A DNA stretch of 64,000 nucleotides from Roseospira goensis (lineage in GTDB: Bacteria > Pseudomonadota > Alphaproteobacteria > Rhodospirillales > Rhodospirillaceae), in assembly GCF_014197795.1 (NCBI RefSeq), contig NZ_JACIGI010000012.1:60151-124150 (forward strand). The letters run 5' to 3'. A model generated the notes under the pieces. It was not told the origin of the DNA and did no database searches. It was given only the letters and a program-made list of their open reading frames with translations. Below are positions 5,443 through 14,297 of the stretch, piece after piece. Both the position numbers and the translations under genes were made by a program. Each line of letters opens with the position of its first letter. Position 1 is the first letter of the stretch.

Positions 5443-5835
5443 ATGATCGCCATGCCCGAACACACCACGACAGGATCGGCCCCGTTCTCGATCCGCCTGA
5501 CGCCCGAGGAGCGTCAAGCGCTGGAGAACCGCGCGGGCCGTCAGGCCCTCGGGGCCTACATCCGCGCGCGTCTGTTCGAGGACCAGGGCGAGGAGCAATC
5601 ACCGCGCCGGACCGCGCGGCGTCCCGCCATCAAGGACGACAAGGCCCTGGCCCAGGTTCTCGCCCTCCTCGGGCAATCGCACCTGGCCGGCAACGTCAAC
5701 CAACTGGCCCGCGCCGCCAACAGCGGCTCCCTCCCCATGACGCCCGAGGTCCGGGCCGCGCTGACCGACGCCAGCGCCGACATTGCCGACATGAAGGCGG
5801 CGCTTATGCAGGCGCTCGACATCCGGGAGCGGTGA
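5443..5835 (+). CDS. mobC: MobC-like relaxosome accessory protein
   Basis: A 130-residue protein. Its N-terminal third (FSIRLTPEERQALENRAG) resembles a ribbon-helix-helix DNA-binding domain, followed by the MobC-type helical region (LAGNVNQLARAANSG). MobC proteins bind near oriT and help the relaxase open the DNA. The relaxase gene follows after 3 bp in the same frame, which is the standard mobCA arrangement. ATG codons at 5443 and 5452 are both possible; neither has a strong ribosome site. GC content here matches the chromosome, unlike the cargo region downstream. It is confidently a mobilization protein by motif and context. Confidence 0.82.
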   Translation: MIAMPEHTTTGSAPFSIRLTPEERQALENRAGRQALGAYIRARLFEDQGEEQSPRRTARRPAIKDDKALAQVLALLGQSHLAGNVNQLARAANSGSLPMTPEVRAALTDASADIADMKAALMQALDIRER

Positions 5836-5838
5836 TCC

Positions 5839-7125
5839 ATTATCCTGAAGGCATCCCAACGCGGCGGGGCGAAGGCCCTGGCGCTCCATCTTCTGCGCGC
5901 CGACGAGAACGAGCACGTCGAGGTGCACGAGATTCGCGGCTTCGTCTCCGCCGACCTCACCGGCGCGTTGAAGGAGGCCCAGGCCGTCGCGCGCGGCACC
6001 AAATGCCGCCAGTTCCTCTTTTCCCTGAGCCTGAGTCCGCCACCGGGCGAGGCCGTTCCCGTCGTCGCGTTCGAGAACGCGCTGGCGCGCATCGAGACAA
6101 AGCTGAACCTCGGCGGCCAGCCCCGCGCCATCGTCTTCCACGAAAAGGAAGGACGGCGGCACGCCCACGCGGTTTGGAGCCGCATCGACGCGGACACCAT
6201 GACCGCCCGCAACCTTCCCCACTTCAAACGGAAGCTCCGCGACATCTCCCGCGCGCTGTACCTGGAGCACGGATGGACCCTGCCGCGCGGCTTGATGAAC
6301 AGCGAGGCCCGCGATCCGCGCACCTTCACCCTGACCGAGTGGCAGCAGGCCAAACGGATGGGCCGGAACGCCCGCGACCTCAAGGAGATGATTCGGGAGT
6401 GCTGGGCCGCGTCCGACTCGCGCGCCGCCTTCTCCGAGGCGCTGGAGGCGCGCGGCCTGATCCTGGCCAGGGGCGACCGGCGCGGCCACGTCGCCGTCAC
6501 CCACGAGGGGGAAGTGTTGTCGATTGCCCGCTATGCCGCCGTGAAGACCAAGGACGTGAACGCCAAGCTGGGACCCGCCGAGACCCTGCCCGGCGTCGAG
6601 GAGGCCCGCGTCCGCATGGCGCGAGACATGGACTCGACCCGGCAGCGGCTTATCCAGGAAGCGCATGACCGCATGGCCGCCGCGTTCAGGACACTGGATC
6701 GTGAGCGCCAGGAAGTGACGCAGCGGCACCGCGCCGACCGTGCCGCCTTGAAGGAAAGCCAGCGCGAGCGCTGGGACACCGAAACCCGCGCCCGATCCGA
6801 CCGTATGAGCCGAGGGCTCCAGGGGTTCTGGGACCGCCTCACCGGACGCTATGCCCGATTGCGACACCAGAACGAGGCCGAAACCTATGCCGCGCTTTGC
6901 CGGGACGGGGACGAGCGCGACACCCTCATTCTCACGCAGATGACCGAACGCCAGGACTTGCAGGCCCGGATACAGAACGCCCGGCACCACCACGCCGAGA
7001 TGCTGCGGGAAATCGAGAGCGACCGAACCCAGGGCGAAACCCAACGGCAGGACAATCCTGGACCGTGGCGATATACTGAAAACGCGCGAGGCCGGGCGGA
7101 CAGCGGCCTTTCCCTGGGGCTGTAG
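5839..7125 (+). CDS. Relaxase/mobilization nuclease (MobA/VirD2-like)
   Basis: About 428 residues. The N-terminal domain has relaxase signatures: ILKASQRGGAK at the start, a central region ending FHEKEGRRHAHAVWSRID (the metal-binding His cluster), then a long charged coiled-coil C-terminal half rich in Arg/Gln/Glu. It would nick oriT and lead single-stranded DNA during transfer. The first ATG/GTG in frame is the GTG at 5923, but the 28 residues before it match the expected start of the family. The codon where homologues have their initiator Met is ATT at 5839, four bases after the mobC stop, so I place the start there as a rare, coupled start. A GTG at 5832 is out of frame. The function is sure; the start codon is not. 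Confidence 0.82.
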   Translation: MILKASQRGGAKALALHLLRADENEHVEVHEIRGFVSADLTGALKEAQAVARGTKCRQFLFSLSLSPPPGEAVPVVAFENALARIETKLNLGGQPRAIVFHEKEGRRHAHAVWSRIDADTMTARNLPHFKRKLRDISRALYLEHGWTLPRGLMNSEARDPRTFTLTEWQQAKRMGRNARDLKEMIRECWAASDSRAAFSEALEARGLILARGDRRGHVAVTHEGEVLSIARYAAVKTKDVNAKLGPAETLPGVEEARVRMARDMDSTRQRLIQEAHDRMAAAFRTLDRERQEVTQRHRADRAALKESQRERWDTETRARSDRMSRGLQGFWDRLTGRYARLRHQNEAETYAALCRDGDERDTLILTQMTERQDLQARIQNARHHHAEMLREIESDRTQGETQRQDNPGPWRYTENARGRADSGLSLGL

Positions 7126-7391: not shown

Positions 7392-7420
7392 TTGACAGGC
7401 ATACGGCAATACCGTATGAT
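7392..7420 (+). promoter_or_regulatory. Sigma70-type promoter of the higBA module
   Basis: A consensus -35 TTGACA (7392-7397), a 17-bp spacer and a near-consensus -10 TATGAT (7415-7420) stand directly in front of the toxin gene. The predicted transcript start falls at or next to the toxin ATG at 7428, so the mRNA would be almost leaderless. Confidence 0.8.
7401..7417. promoter_or_regulatory. Palindromic operator overlapping the higBA -10 box
   Basis: ATACGG (7401-7406) and CCGTAT (7412-7417) form a 6-bp inverted repeat around CAATA, inside the spacer and -10 region. HigA-type antitoxins repress their own promoter by binding such palindromes, so this is a likely autoregulatory site. Confidence 0.65.
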
Positions 7421-7427
7421 ACAAGGA

Positions 7428-7712
7428 ATGGATATTGTTTCATTCAGTCATAAGGGATTACGGGAACTCTACCTGACCGGCAATGCAAAGGGCGTGAAGC
7501 CGTCCCTGGTTGCCCGCGTTCGACGGGTCCTGTTCGCGCTGGCCGCCGCGCCGGACATGGACACCCTGAACGGCCCGCCCGGCTGGCGCATCCACCAACT
7601 CACGGGGGACCGCGCCGGTGACTGGTCGATCTCGGTATCCGGGAATTGGCGACTGACCTTCAAAATCGAAGACGGCGCGATTGTTGACCTGAATTTGGAG
7701 GATTATCACTGA
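7428..7712 (+). CDS. higB: HigB/RelE-family toxin
   Basis: A 94-residue protein of the RelE/HigB mRNA-interferase type: an N-terminal helical half, then the beta-sheet half with GWRIHQLTGDRAGDWSISVS and GNWRLTF. Such toxins cut mRNA at the ribosome. The ATG at 7428 was chosen because it lies just after the promoter; an in-frame ATG at 7416 lies inside the -10 box, and any longer start would lie upstream of the transcript start. AAGGA directly abuts the ATG, too close for a normal ribosome site, in line with leaderless translation. The antitoxin gene follows with a TGATG overlap. The toxin-first order is typical of higBA. Confidence 0.87.
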   Translation: MDIVSFSHKGLRELYLTGNAKGVKPSLVARVRRVLFALAAAPDMDTLNGPPGWRIHQLTGDRAGDWSISVSGNWRLTFKIEDGAIVDLNLEDYH

Positions 7713-8029
7713 TGGAAAGAGAACCACTGAAAATGGGAATGGCCCCGGTTCATCCGGGCGAATTTATCCGGGAGGAGATTCTGGACGAACTCGGGCTTAC
7801 GATTACCAAGGCCGCGAAGGTGCTGGGCGTGCGCGCCGCCACCCTGTCCGACCTCACGAACGAGAAATCCTCGCTCTCGCCGGAAATGGCCATGCGGATC
7901 GAACTGGCCTTTGACGTGAAAGCGGACCTGCTTCTGCGCATGCAGGCGCTCTACGACAGCATGACGATCCGCAGCCGGGCAGCGGAACTGAATGTGCAGC
8001 GGTATGTGGAGGGGCGGCAGACGGTTTGA
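7712..8029 (+). CDS. higA: HigA-family antitoxin (XRE helix-turn-helix)
   Basis: A 105-residue protein with the HigA opening (HPGEFIREEILDELGLT, about residues 14-30), a helix-turn-helix (KAAKVLGVRAATLSDLTN) and the family's following segment SPEMAMRIELAF. It binds and neutralises the toxin and represses the shared promoter. The start ATG overlaps the toxin stop by one base. The pair probably stabilises the island against loss. After this gene the GC content falls sharply, marking the cargo block. Confidence 0.9.
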   Translation: MEREPLKMGMAPVHPGEFIREEILDELGLTITKAAKVLGVRAATLSDLTNEKSSLSPEMAMRIELAFDVKADLLLRMQALYDSMTIRSRAAELNVQRYVEGRQTV

Positions 8030-8262: not shown

Positions 8263-9288
8263 ATGGATATCGAGGGCCGTTTTTTGGATGAGATATTGCG
8301 AAAGCTTTACGATAAGCTTTCGAAGAGTGCCGACACGTTTGTAGCCAGTAAGGGAAGTGGACAAGATCTTCTTGGAGCAAAGATCAAACTTACAAATCCA
8401 CGCGCTAGAATTAGCGCAACATCTACACGAGGGCGATTAATCTCAGCGCTAGCCGAATTTTGTTGGTACATGAGCGGCAGCGCCGACCTTGATTTTATTC
8501 GTTTTTACATAAAGGATTACCCTCCCAAGGAAGCCTCCGGATCTATTGAAGAAGCCTATGGCCCTCGCCTGATAGGAACTGGTGAGTTTGGCAGGTCTGT
8601 TAACCAGATTGAAAGGGTGATTGATCTACTTCAAAAGAAGCCCGATACACGCCGAGCATTAATTTCGATAATTGAAGCCAATGATCTAGAGCCTAATAGA
8701 TCCGAGAATCCATGCACTGTTGCTTTGCAGTTTATTTGTCGACGCAGCCGCTTACACATGATTACCATGATGCGATCCAACGACGCCTATATGGGTTTTG
8801 TCCATGATGTATTTTGTTTCACTATGATCCAAGAGCTTATTGCCCGCTCTCTTGATGTAGAGGTTGGCGACTATCATCACTTCGCGACCAGCCTCCACCT
8901 TTACGAACACAACTCAAATGATATTTCAAGGTACCTCAATGAAGGATACCAAAACCCAACCTTTGCAATGCCGGAAATGCCGTCAGGCTGTCAACGCGAC
9001 AACTTGGCTGCATTCCTAATAACCGAGAAATCGATTAGACAAGGAAAGATCACGACAGCTTCGCAAATTGATCTACCAACCTATTGGCGCGATCTTTCAC
9101 TAGTACTTCTACGGCATGCTGACGGAAAACTGAAAAGGGGAAACAAGATACTGGAGGAAAATTTTTCGCAGATTTCAGACTCGTTCTACATGAACTTCTT
9201 TTTGCGAAAACCAAAAACTACCCGGAAATCAGCCAATAGTGGGCCGACTCAGATTAAACTTGATCTAGGTGACCGATATGACAGTTAG
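8263..9288 (+). CDS. Thymidylate synthase-family protein with dCMP-type active site
   Basis: A 341-residue member of the thymidylate synthase fold. Key residues align with E. coli ThyA at a constant offset of five: Arg130/Arg131 (125/126-type phosphate arginines), nucleophile Cys151 (146), Arg171-Ser172 (166-167), Asp174 (169), His212 (207) and Tyr214 (209). The residue matching Asn177, which selects uracil, is Asp182. Asp at this place is found in dCMP hydroxymethylases, and the N-to-D change makes thymidylate synthase accept dCMP. The predicted reaction is therefore 5-methylation or 5-hydroxymethylation of a cytosine nucleotide, not dTMP synthesis. The ATG at 8263 starts the conserved region. 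The next gene overlaps by 11 bp. Base composition is AT-rich relative to the chromosome, indicating transfer. Confidence 0.82.
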   Translation: MDIEGRFLDEILRKLYDKLSKSADTFVASKGSGQDLLGAKIKLTNPRARISATSTRGRLISALAEFCWYMSGSADLDFIRFYIKDYPPKEASGSIEEAYGPRLIGTGEFGRSVNQIERVIDLLQKKPDTRRALISIIEANDLEPNRSENPCTVALQFICRRSRLHMITMMRSNDAYMGFVHDVFCFTMIQELIARSLDVEVGDYHHFATSLHLYEHNSNDISRYLNEGYQNPTFAMPEMPSGCQRDNLAAFLITEKSIRQGKITTASQIDLPTYWRDLSLVLLRHADGKLKRGNKILEENFSQISDSFYMNFFLRKPKTTRKSANSGPTQIKLDLGDRYDS

Positions 9289-10210
9289 AATAAAAAATGA
9301 GGGTATATCTAATGATATCACTGCCACCCTTAAAAATTTTTCCGAAACGGAGATCAATCTTCCAGGAATCTCGAATCCAGAGCGCAGGTTTGTGCTCGCA
9401 CAGCAGATAATCGACAGTATTCGTCGAATCGAATACCTTCATGTCGTATCAATAAGAGCAAAATCGGCAAGCCTACATACACCTTATTCGGGCAGCTTTG
9501 CCCCTTTTGGTGGCGCGGTAGTTCTGCACAAGGCGGGACGATTGGATGACGCTTTTTGGCTGGTCTATCTTGCTACTCATTTTGGCAAACACAAGATCGA
9601 TGGATGGAACCTCACTGAAGACTTCTATGGCCGCTTTGGGCAAGGAGGAGCTTGGGATTGGCCTACCGCAAGCCGGGACCCACTAGCAATATCTCTTTGG
9701 TTGGACTCCATCTATCCTACAGTCACCGCCTCAGGGCGCTCACGGCGTTTTGGCAATCATAGGAAATTTGAAACCTTGAAGCCTGGACCAAAGGGCACCG
9801 GGCAAGCCGTTGCATCTTATATCCGTTGGATAGCCGAATACGGCTCTCACGATGATCTAATACGACAGGTACATAAAACGGTAGGGCAGAACCCAAAAGA
9901 AGTTTTTTCCTACCTATACAAAGACCTTAACAAGGTATCCAAGCTTGGACGCTTGGGTAAGTTTGATCTACTGTGCTACCTGGGTAGTCTTTCGATTGCA
10001 CCTATTGTTCCAGACAAAGCTTACATTTCTGAGTCGACCGGCCCAAAAGCTGGTGCCAAGTCGCTTTTTGGATCCCAGACAAATACGAATACACTCGAAA
10101 GTGCCTGCACTAGGTTAGCTGATTACCTCGATGTCAACCCACAGGTAATTGAAGACGCTTTGTGCAACTGGCAAAAAAGCCCCGACAAATACGTATACTT
10201 CCGTGGTTAG
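9278..10210 (+). CDS. Putative alpha-glutamyl/putrescinyl-thymine pyrophosphorylase-like protein (clade 3)
   Basis: A 310-residue protein. Recognisable blocks are FGKHKIDGWNL with FYGRFGQGGAWDW (residues about 105-135), RFGNHRKFE (about 160), GRLGKFDLLCYLG (about 230) and, near the end, EDALCNWQKSPD. I recall these from the clade-3 aGPT-Pplase family, a glycosylase-fold group predicted to act on hypermodified pyrimidines in phage DNA. The match is from memory and unverified. The ATG at 9278 has AGGTGA five bases upstream and overlaps the preceding gene by 11 bp, so the two are translationally coupled and probably form one pathway. An in-frame GTG at 9269 is the alternative start. The stop overlaps the convergent gene's stop by 3 bp. 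No kinase of the hydroxymethylpyrimidine-DNA type is next to it. Confidence 0.6.
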   Translation: MTVRIKNEGISNDITATLKNFSETEINLPGISNPERRFVLAQQIIDSIRRIEYLHVVSIRAKSASLHTPYSGSFAPFGGAVVLHKAGRLDDAFWLVYLATHFGKHKIDGWNLTEDFYGRFGQGGAWDWPTASRDPLAISLWLDSIYPTVTASGRSRRFGNHRKFETLKPGPKGTGQAVASYIRWIAEYGSHDDLIRQVHKTVGQNPKEVFSYLYKDLNKVSKLGRLGKFDLLCYLGSLSIAPIVPDKAYISESTGPKAGAKSLFGSQTNTNTLESACTRLADYLDVNPQVIEDALCNWQKSPDKYVYFRG

Positions 10211-11298
10211 TTGACCCAACGATAGCGGCGTTTTAGGTGCTGCATTTGCTTAAAATCAATGAGTCCTTCGTGCTGGAGTTGACCAACAACCAGTCCAGGC
10301 GCTACGCCAATTTTCTTGGCGAAATTGATAATCGGCAAACGGGCCGCGCCAAGGGAGGCCATTTCTTCACGATACTGTACTGGGACAATAACATTTGCCG
10401 CAAATTCATTTGCTTCCCGTTCGCAAATTTCTTCCACTGTTCCCCCGTTCTCAAAAATCGGCATTCTGTCATAATGAAGCAACAAGTGGCCAATCTCGTG
10501 AAAGAACGAGAACCAAAACTGATCGTCGGACAGAAACCGAAAACTAAGCTGAATGTGGGGCGTGCCATGTGAAATTAGCCTCACGGCACCACTCGCTGAG
10601 CATCCTTTTGGTGCCCTGACAACTGCAAATTTAACGCCGCACTCGGCAAGAAATTCCTTCAGTTTGGGCAAAAACAGTGCTGGACTTTTGTACCATGTCA
10701 ACCGCCGGAAATGCGAAATCTTACTTCTAAGATTCTTTGGCGACCAGTCGCCGACCTTATCGTACTCTGTTTCAATCTCTCCTTGACGAAGCCAAGCCGT
10801 TGTCGCGATCTCGCACGAGGCATATGCTGTCGAGCGTCGGTAGGATGCTTGTTGAAATGCGCATTCATATCGGCCTTGCCACTGCGCAAGCGATGACACA
10901 CCAAAAAATGTCAAACATGCCGCAATCTTCTCATCTTTTGATTGAGCCCTGTCGATCCAGCCAAATTTCTGCATGTCGCTCAAGGGAAGCCGACCCAAAA
11001 GCTCAGCTAAGCTTGCGACCTTGGTGTTCTTCGGCGAACCTAGGCTCGCACGGTAGTCGTATTCTCGTGCCAGCCAAAACGTATCAGAAGCGCCAAGTGT
11101 ACGAGACAGTCGTTGCGCTAGCTCCGAATCTACGACTTGAACGCCGTCAAGAATTTTTTGCGCTACGGCCGTAGATCTGCCAATTGCGCAAGCAAATTGT
11201 TCAACCGTCAGCTCTTTCTCTTCGAGAATGCTCAATATGGTATGTCCGGGCGGAGACACCCAATCAGGCTTTTCTCTGATTGCTTCATTTGACATCAT
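10207..11298 (-). CDS. XRE helix-turn-helix plus ImmA/IrrE metallopeptidase
   Basis: A 363-residue two-domain protein. Residues about 15-75 are an XRE/HigA-like helix-turn-helix (ILEEKELTVEQFACAIGRS with LAQRLSRTLGAS). The C-terminal part has the zinc-peptidase motif HEIGH (in FSFFHEIGHLLLHYD) and a downstream EREANEFAANVIVP helix that supplies the third ligand. ImmA/IrrE proteins cleave repressors and switch on mobile-element or stress genes. The N-terminus overlaps the end of the small upstream gene by 14 bp, so the two are coupled. It converges on the nucleotide-modification genes with a 3-bp overlap of stop codons. It could be a regulator of the cargo, part of a toxin-antitoxin-like module, or a defence sensor. 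Confidence 0.85.
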   Translation of the reverse strand: MMSNEAIREKPDWVSPPGHTILSILEEKELTVEQFACAIGRSTAVAQKILDGVQVVDSELAQRLSRTLGASDTFWLAREYDYRASLGSPKNTKVASLAELLGRLPLSDMQKFGWIDRAQSKDEKIAACLTFFGVSSLAQWQGRYECAFQQASYRRSTAYASCEIATTAWLRQGEIETEYDKVGDWSPKNLRSKISHFRRLTWYKSPALFLPKLKEFLAECGVKFAVVRAPKGCSASGAVRLISHGTPHIQLSFRFLSDDQFWFSFFHEIGHLLLHYDRMPIFENGGTVEEICEREANEFAANVIVPVQYREEMASLGAARLPIINFAKKIGVAPGLVVGQLQHEGLIDFKQMQHLKRRYRWVN

Positions 11299-11782
11299 TT
11301 ATTCCCACGATCTTTACCCGCCCCACCGTAGACCAGTCATAAATACCATCATCTTCAACTGCACCGTAATTTGGGACCATAAATATTGACAAAATACTTC
11401 TGAAGGTAAACGCACAAAAGTTACCGTCTATGGAAACCCGCCCTAGGGGAAGTTCATAGACGTTCTTTGCTGCCTGAATATCGGAATGCCGCGCTTGCAA
11501 GCAAGTTGCCGCCTCTTCCCCTAAGTGTTCTCTGGCAGCACAAGAGCGGAAGCATATTTGTTGAAGTAACTGAGTGTCGTAAGAAATTAACAAAACACCC
11601 CCGCATTTTTGACCGGCTACTTTCAGTCCGGCGGCCAGGACACTCCCAAGTCCTGCCAGTTTTTGCGCAGAAACCGCCCCTGCGACTAATCGGAGTGCGC
11701 AATAACTGTCTGGCTCGCCCCAAGTGAAAGCGGGCAGCAGAGGGGATCGTCGAAAAAAGTCAAATTTCTTGTACCTCAACAT
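11285..11782 (-). CDS. Small unknown protein coupled to the ImmA/IrrE gene
   Basis: A 165-residue protein I do not recognise. It begins MLRYKKFDFFRRSP, has five or six cysteines in the middle (around KVAGQKCGG and ICFRSCAAREH) and a C-terminal stretch of short beta-like segments ending GRVKIVGINDVK. There is no signal peptide or clear membrane helix. The ATG at 11782 starts the frame, and its 3' end overlaps the XRE-ImmA/IrrE gene by 14 bp. The coupling suggests a partner or substrate of the peptidase, for example a toxin or a sensor. AT-rich codon use matches the other cargo genes. The function cannot be given. Confidence 0.6.
   Translation of the reverse strand: MLRYKKFDFFRRSPLLPAFTWGEPDSYCALRLVAGAVSAQKLAGLGSVLAAGLKVAGQKCGGVLLISYDTQLLQQICFRSCAAREHLGEEAATCLQARHSDIQAAKNVYELPLGRVSIDGNFCAFTFRSILSIFMVPNYGAVEDDGIYDWSTVGRVKIVGINDVK

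Positions 11783-12702: not shown

Positions 12703-12716
<14 letters not shown>
12423..12716 (+). CDS. Small protein coupled to the serine recombinase
   Basis: A 97-residue, mainly helical protein of unknown function. Its most structured part, from YRPYVDGFDLTEAQKAELI to a segment with EAFADQAFGLHP, lies in the first half; the second half is polar and probably flexible. I chose the GTG at 12423 because AGGAG lies five bases before it; the ATG at 12432 is 13 bases from that site. The 3' end overlaps the recombinase start by 14 bp, so translation is coupled. Similar small genes sit before serine recombinases in other alphaproteobacterial islands as far as I recall, and could be directionality factors, but that is inference. 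Confidence 0.7.

Positions 12717-14297
<1,581 letters not shown>

Follow-up and report, generated by a model that had tools for sequence, protein, structure and literature searches.

The stretch of DNA analysed here, a 64,000-nucleotide window of Roseospira goensis (RefSeq assembly GCF_014197795.1, contig NZ_JACIGI010000012.1, positions 60,151 to 124,150), raises the question of what a thymidylate synthase (TS) homologue of apparent cytosine-nucleotide type does next to a gene of the aGPT-Pplase3 family. The TS homologue, open reading frame (ORF) 1, occupies positions 8263–9288 of the forward strand and encodes 341 residues from an ATG start. ORF2, whose aGPT-Pplase3 product is hereafter called AG, lies at 9278–10210 on the same strand and encodes 310 residues, also from ATG. 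Both coordinate ranges and the 11-bp overlap, reported earlier by a reading of the letters without database searches (the sequence-only reading), were confirmed; the mechanical ORFs open slightly upstream, at GTG 8134 and GTG 9269, respectively. That reading, which we find partly supported overall, described a two-gene cassette. The pair is real but the cassette incomplete, as genes for a helix-turn-helix (HTH)-ImmA/IrrE protein and a HigB-like protein nearly always belong to it, and a UDG-fold gene does so in about one third of the related loci. Judged from sequence, the chances appear evenly balanced that these four genes constitute a mobile module joining cytosine modification to a toxin–antitoxin-like immune (or genome-conflict) function.

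The loci compared were collected by AG alone. They number 109 and comprise the window, L002, L003 and L005, 80 genome-contig loci (the best 80 of 93), 19 viral loci and six further viral loci found with a profile. AG is present in 109 of them, TS in 108, HTH-ImmA in 106 and the HigB-like gene in 102. TS and AG share a strand and converge with the HTH-ImmA and HigB-like genes in 105 of the 106 loci that have HTH-ImmA, the exception being L023, where the second pair is reversed. Six of the seven loci devoid of the HigB-like gene end near a contig edge and the seventh is the AG orphan L005. Profiles located all four genes in the four plasmid records opened (4/4) and in three E. coli records (L159 left out). 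Several viral contigs duplicate genome loci, and protein distances were therefore calculated for 80 non-redundant loci. All six pairwise correlations between the distance matrices of the four proteins fall between 0.73 and 0.87, uncorrected for host kinship, and none of 500 permutations was as high.

The orphan AG gene of L005/L151 lies at positions 1651–2556 of L151, and the 14-kb stretch around it gave no hits to the TS, HTH-ImmA, HigB-like or UDG-fold profiles. L092 and L093 belong to a single viral contig of 118,644 bases that has the module near both ends, perhaps through assembly or a terminal repeat.

ORF1 matched the Pfam family PF00303 (Thymidylat_synt) with an E-value of 4.7e-24 and 85.4 bits (cut-off 24.3). 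The residues singled out by the sequence-only reading, R130, R131, C151, R171, D174, D182, H212 and Y214, are all present. Its statement that they lie exactly five positions beyond their E. coli ThyA counterparts agrees with the E. coli numbering Cys146, Arg166, Asp169 and Asn177. With the E. coli numbers given in the available text of PMC5175136, the offset of five holds for Ser167, His207 and Tyr209, but that of Arg126, the counterpart of R130, is four. Conservation was counted over 101 aligned TS rows, near-identical copies included and a short row of 220 residues (L021) left out. C151, R171, S172, D174, D182, H212 and Y214 each occur in 101 of 101. Position 130 is Arg in 84 rows, as in the window, and Lys in 17, and position 131 is Arg in 72, Gln in 16, Lys in 12 and Asn in one. 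Position 148, three residues before Cys151, is acidic in 93 rows (56 Glu and 37 Asp, with other residues in eight) and is Glu in the window.

A family profile built from 54 relatives retrieved MilA (5b6d) from the Protein Data Bank (PDB) sequences with an E-value of 2.3e-69, the best TS being 6auj with 6.1e-29, and the MilA match reaches into the C-terminal part of the TS homologue. Alignment with T4 gp42 places T4 Asp145 on Glu148 and T4 Asp179 on Asp182, and the TS of phage M6 carries Asn at the position of Asp182. As described in the available text of PMC5175136, Asp186 of MilA is the mark of cytosine users, and replacing Ala176 by Ser and Lys133 by Arg switches MilA to dCMP; the hydroxymethylase mark given in the accessible part of PMC6400193 is Asp or Glu three residues ahead of the Cys. 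The window protein has all of these dCMP-hydroxymethylase determinants, namely Asp for cytosine, Ser and Arg for the deoxyribose and an acid before the Cys for hydroxylation. The MilA-like profile, the invariant C151, S172 and D182 and the acid at position 148 together lead to the strong prediction that the TS homologue is a dCMP 5-hydroxymethylase, in line with the dCMP-type assignment made earlier. The predicted enzyme would catalyze the first step of the module's chemistry, in which dCMP, methylene-tetrahydrofolate and water yield 5-hydroxymethyl-dCMP. The R. goensis genome (98.6% complete, 81 contigs) contains a ThyX match, so ORF1 is not obviously required for dTMP; no PF00303 match besides ORF1 was found in that genome.

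The identity of the closest solved relative, MilA, would also fit a mildiomycin-like set of nucleoside natural-product genes in which a MilA-type enzyme serves small-molecule synthesis. This explanation is very improbable. Ser172 stands in 101 of 101 rows where MilA has Ala, which indicates a deoxy-type pocket; the 25 largest recurrent flanking clusters include no evident biosynthetic gene, and the toxin–antitoxin-like neighbours are constant.

The TS profile retrieved 79 viral loci, 54 of which (L204–L236 and L238–L258) also carry an Asp182-type TS gene, one search pattern having required the Asp. No aGPT-Pplase3 or ImmA partner was found in the available stretch of those 54 loci, and Gln replaces Arg at position 131 in 42 of them. 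They possibly represent cytosine-modifying phages.

ORF2 matched the Pfam families PF18746 (aGPT-Pplase3; E-value 6.8e-83, 278.7 bits, cut-off 25) and PF18724 (ADDT; E-value 9.1e-65, 219.1 bits, cut-off 26.2). The resemblance to clade-3 aGPT-Pplase proteins, which the sequence-only reading had suggested, is far above chance in this Pfam search, which removes the first of that reading's grounds for refutation, a lack of similarity to the pyrophosphorylase family. PADLOC models gave no match at E ≤ 1 for either ORF. A Foldseek search with the AG model found by itself no match at E ≤ 0.001, and the AG profile returned nothing useful from the PDB sequences. Only a second look with VIA gave PUGT, the phage 5-PmdU glycinyltransferase, whose fold the AG model shares; the modelled fold is also HhH-glycosylase-like, and gp51 of phage M6 matches PF18724 with an E-value of 1.4e-46 and 159.6 bits. 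In the second step of the proposed chemistry AG, with its base-flipping glycosylase-like fold, would probably act on a 5-substituted cytosine in DNA or in a nucleotide, most likely by attaching a group to it or by exchanging one.

In the phage pathway PUGT acts after a DNA kinase step and works on a phosphomethyl base within DNA. The sequence-only reading had remarked that such a kinase is missing, and a phmmer search with M6 gp54, the phage 5-hmdU DNA kinase (HMUDK), gave no hits at E ≤ 1 among the 7815 ORFs of the 109 loci, a single-sequence search that a distant kinase could escape. PF18748 had no matches in the R. goensis genome, and the controls in that search were likewise silent. The UDG-fold gene occurs in 34 of the 109 loci and another small gene in 29, never both; the UDG-fold gene is absent from the window copy. 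Where present, either protein may hold the modified base in check. The small gene, located beyond the HigB-like gene, strongly matches two PHROGs families of unknown function. MazG was considered as its identity and rejected, as Pfam shows no MazG and the PHROGs MazG-like family matches with an E-value of 0.032 only. In each of the four E. coli records opened (L158, L159, L160 and L161), a separate gene named MazG-like in RefSeq stands just past the module on the opposite strand, and in two of the four a dGTPase-family gene lies directly upstream of the module (L159 and L161, frameshifted in the latter).

These observations bear on an alternative in which TS and AG make an antiviral prodrug, namely a modified dCMP. 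The host would be unable to load it into DNA, and a nucleotide kinase, either encoded by the phage or induced by infection, would activate it and so poison phage replication. Protection of the host would then fall to the UDG-fold or small accessory protein, with the toxin pair as a back-up. The absence of a phage kinase homologue from the ORFs searched, the mutual exclusion of the two accessory genes, expected for alternative clean-up steps, and the MazG-like and dGTPase-family genes beside the E. coli copies all agree with this scheme. However, PUGT, the nearest characterised relative of AG, bears a name that gives a phosphomethyl base as its substrate and works on that base in DNA, the module has no constant triphosphate-level enzyme, and the scheme is purely inferential. 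We consider it unlikely.

The two remaining genes of the module are on the reverse strand of the window. The HTH (HigA-like) and ImmA/IrrE zinc-peptidase protein of 363 residues is encoded at 10207–11298, convergent with the TS-AG pair, and the small HigB-like protein of ~102 residues at 11285–11593. The HTH-ImmA protein matched PF06114 (E-value 1e-10), the PADLOC models PD-Lambda-2_B (3.3e-24 over residues 20–355) and CapP (2.8e-6), and TIGR02607, antidote_HigA (1.4e-6, under its cut-off). It contains an HExxH motif at residues 266–270, the His, Glu and His of which are kept in 98 of 98 rows. The HigB-like gene probably starts at TTG 11593, as comparison with its relatives suggests, the ORF staying open upstream to 11782. 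The family aligned with HigB in hhalign with a probability of 93.9 and an E-value of 1.6e-7, compared with a probability of 0.1 for the control, HigB against TS. Pfam PF05015 weakly matched one of 27 members (E-value 5.5e-4), and the family profile retrieved nothing useful from the PDB sequences. No shared operator was found in the regions upstream of the TS and HigB-like genes.

In the available text of PMC9519451, the abortive defence system PD-lambda-2 consists of a HigB-like gene, a HigA-like HTH-peptidase fusion and a third gene. The third component is needed for defence against lambda. By analogy, in a third step the HigB-like toxin and the HTH-ImmA protein might respond to the modification state or to a disturbance of that state upon infection, and toxin release might arrest the infected cell in the manner of PD-lambda-2. 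The same association of writer-type enzymes with an effector-like pair bearing an ImmA/IrrE domain, together with the CapP match, would suit a restriction-like system in which modified cytosine marks the host genome as self and DNA lacking the mark sets off the toxin pair. Such self-marking is quite unlikely, given that the recurrent genes include no nuclease and no kinase for loading the mark, and that sensing of incoming DNA by the HTH-ImmA protein is speculation.

AG relatives were found in 19 viral-contig loci by the ORF2 search and in 25 by profile, and on eight plasmids. There were no AG matches among 50,697 phage records. The distribution is rare and scattered, with AG in four of 398 phylum genomes and in one of 385 class genomes, that of R. 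goensis itself. Record titles, many of them of metagenome-assembled genomes, suggest nine host phyla: Pseudomonadota, Chloroflexota, Acidobacteriota, Myxococcota, Actinomycetota, Planctomycetota, Bacteroidota, Verrucomicrobiota and Spirochaetota. The 3.3-kb Enterobacter copy (L073) is matched by 231 of 5426 complete E. coli genomes (~4%), 226 of them over at least 80% of its length, and many of the 231 may be related strains; the matches fall in 239 chromosomal places and none on plasmids.

The window copy is flanked by genes for a NikA-like protein, a MobA/VirD2 relaxase and a serine recombinase (5443–7125 and 12703–14297). The 3′ end of the serine recombinase gene overlaps a tRNA-Ala gene, and no tRNA-Ala repeats of 14–20 bases were found elsewhere in the 64-kb window. 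A separate HigB/HigA pair is located at 7419–8029 on the forward strand, directly upstream of the TS gene, and the Roseomonas plasmid copy (L155) has a RelE/ParE-HigA pair upstream too. The NikA-like protein, the relaxase, the HigB/HigA pair and the serine recombinase indicate that the window copy appears to reside on a mobilisable element, which is probably inserted at tRNA-Ala. At a threshold of E ≤ 1e-20, PADLOC matches to 108 ORFs flanking 18 selected proteobacterial loci spanned 112 families, and those to 108 ORFs from 18 control stretches spanned 11 (JetA, mad3 and mad8 included), a comparison that counts families rather than proteins and uses stretches not matched by genome. Among the best flank matches are Gabija GajA/GajB, a CBASS cyclase, AbiEi/AbiEii, type I and IIG restriction-modification and ZacB, and every one of the four E. 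coli records opened has type I restriction-modification genes within 15 kb of the module. Flanks so rich in defence genes support a likely link with phage defence, which the sequence-only reading had raised as a possibility.

A mobile setting is also what would be expected if the element evaded restriction by modifying the cytosines of its DNA and of the DNA of its cell, with the toxin pair stabilising the element by addiction. The mobilisable context of the window copy and the relatives on plasmids and in viral contigs favour this possibility, as does the service of modified bases to phages as counter-defence, described in the available text of PMC13160076. It is nonetheless difficult to reconcile with the chromosomal location of the E. 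coli copies, with the lack of AG matches in the phage records and with surroundings rich in other defence genes, and we rate it improbable.

We return to a four-gene cytosine-modification and immune module as the preferred reading. A narrower version of it, that in a widespread module a hypermodified cytosine (5-hydroxymethyl-dC bearing a further group added by a relative of amino acid:DNA transferases) is coupled to the HigB/HigA-ImmA switch as a modification-guarded form of abortive infection, is a tentative proposal with clearly less than an even chance; no counterpart of it was found. In the available text of PMC13092281, DefensePredictor has a TS domain among its validated defence systems and places aGPT-Pplase with the defence domains that it predicts but has not validated. 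The predicted aGPT-Pplase system may be the same module. Judged by title and the start of the abstract, PMC13092281 is the only one of six papers retrieved with aGPT terms that concerns bacterial defence. No recognisable experimental study of the module was found in a literature search that most subscription papers lie outside. If the preferred reading is correct, bacteria use phage DNA-hypermodification enzymes for cytosine instead of thymine and tie them to a toxin–antitoxin-like pair. A Pfam family named by prediction only, aGPT-Pplase clade 3, would gain a role, and bacterial immunity would gain a branch of nucleotide chemistry. The matches in E. coli make the module open to testing in a common laboratory species.

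The module combines features of several known systems and differs from each. With MilA and T4 gp42 the TS homologue shares the TS fold family, the catalytic Cys, the Asp at the TS Asn177 position and the acid three residues before the Cys. Unlike MilA, which has Ala and Lys, the TS homologues have Ser172 and mostly Arg130, as do deoxy-specific enzymes, and they sit in a bacterial mobile module rather than in a T-even phage or among the genes of an antibiotic cluster. AG shares the ADDT family PF18724 and, by prediction, the fold with PUGT/AADT of phage PaMx11, of which M6 gp51 is a relative. The substrate of PUGT is a thymine-type base whereas the TS partner of AG is of cytosine type, and among the residues invariant in the phage enzymes (eight sequences, 156 aligned columns) Glu, Cys and Trp align with identical residues of AG and K150 with Asp. 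Brig1 and Brig3, as presented in the available text of PMC13160076, are glycosylases of the UDG superfamily that act on 5-hydroxymethylcytosine in defence, and a UDG-fold gene likewise accompanies some copies of the module; in contrast, the module's own cell encodes the predicted maker of the hydroxymethylcytosine nucleotide, and the window copy does without the UDG-fold gene. PD-lambda-2 has a corresponding HigB-like and HTH-ImmA pair, the comparison covering these two of its three genes, whereas here the pair converges on two genes of nucleotide modification.
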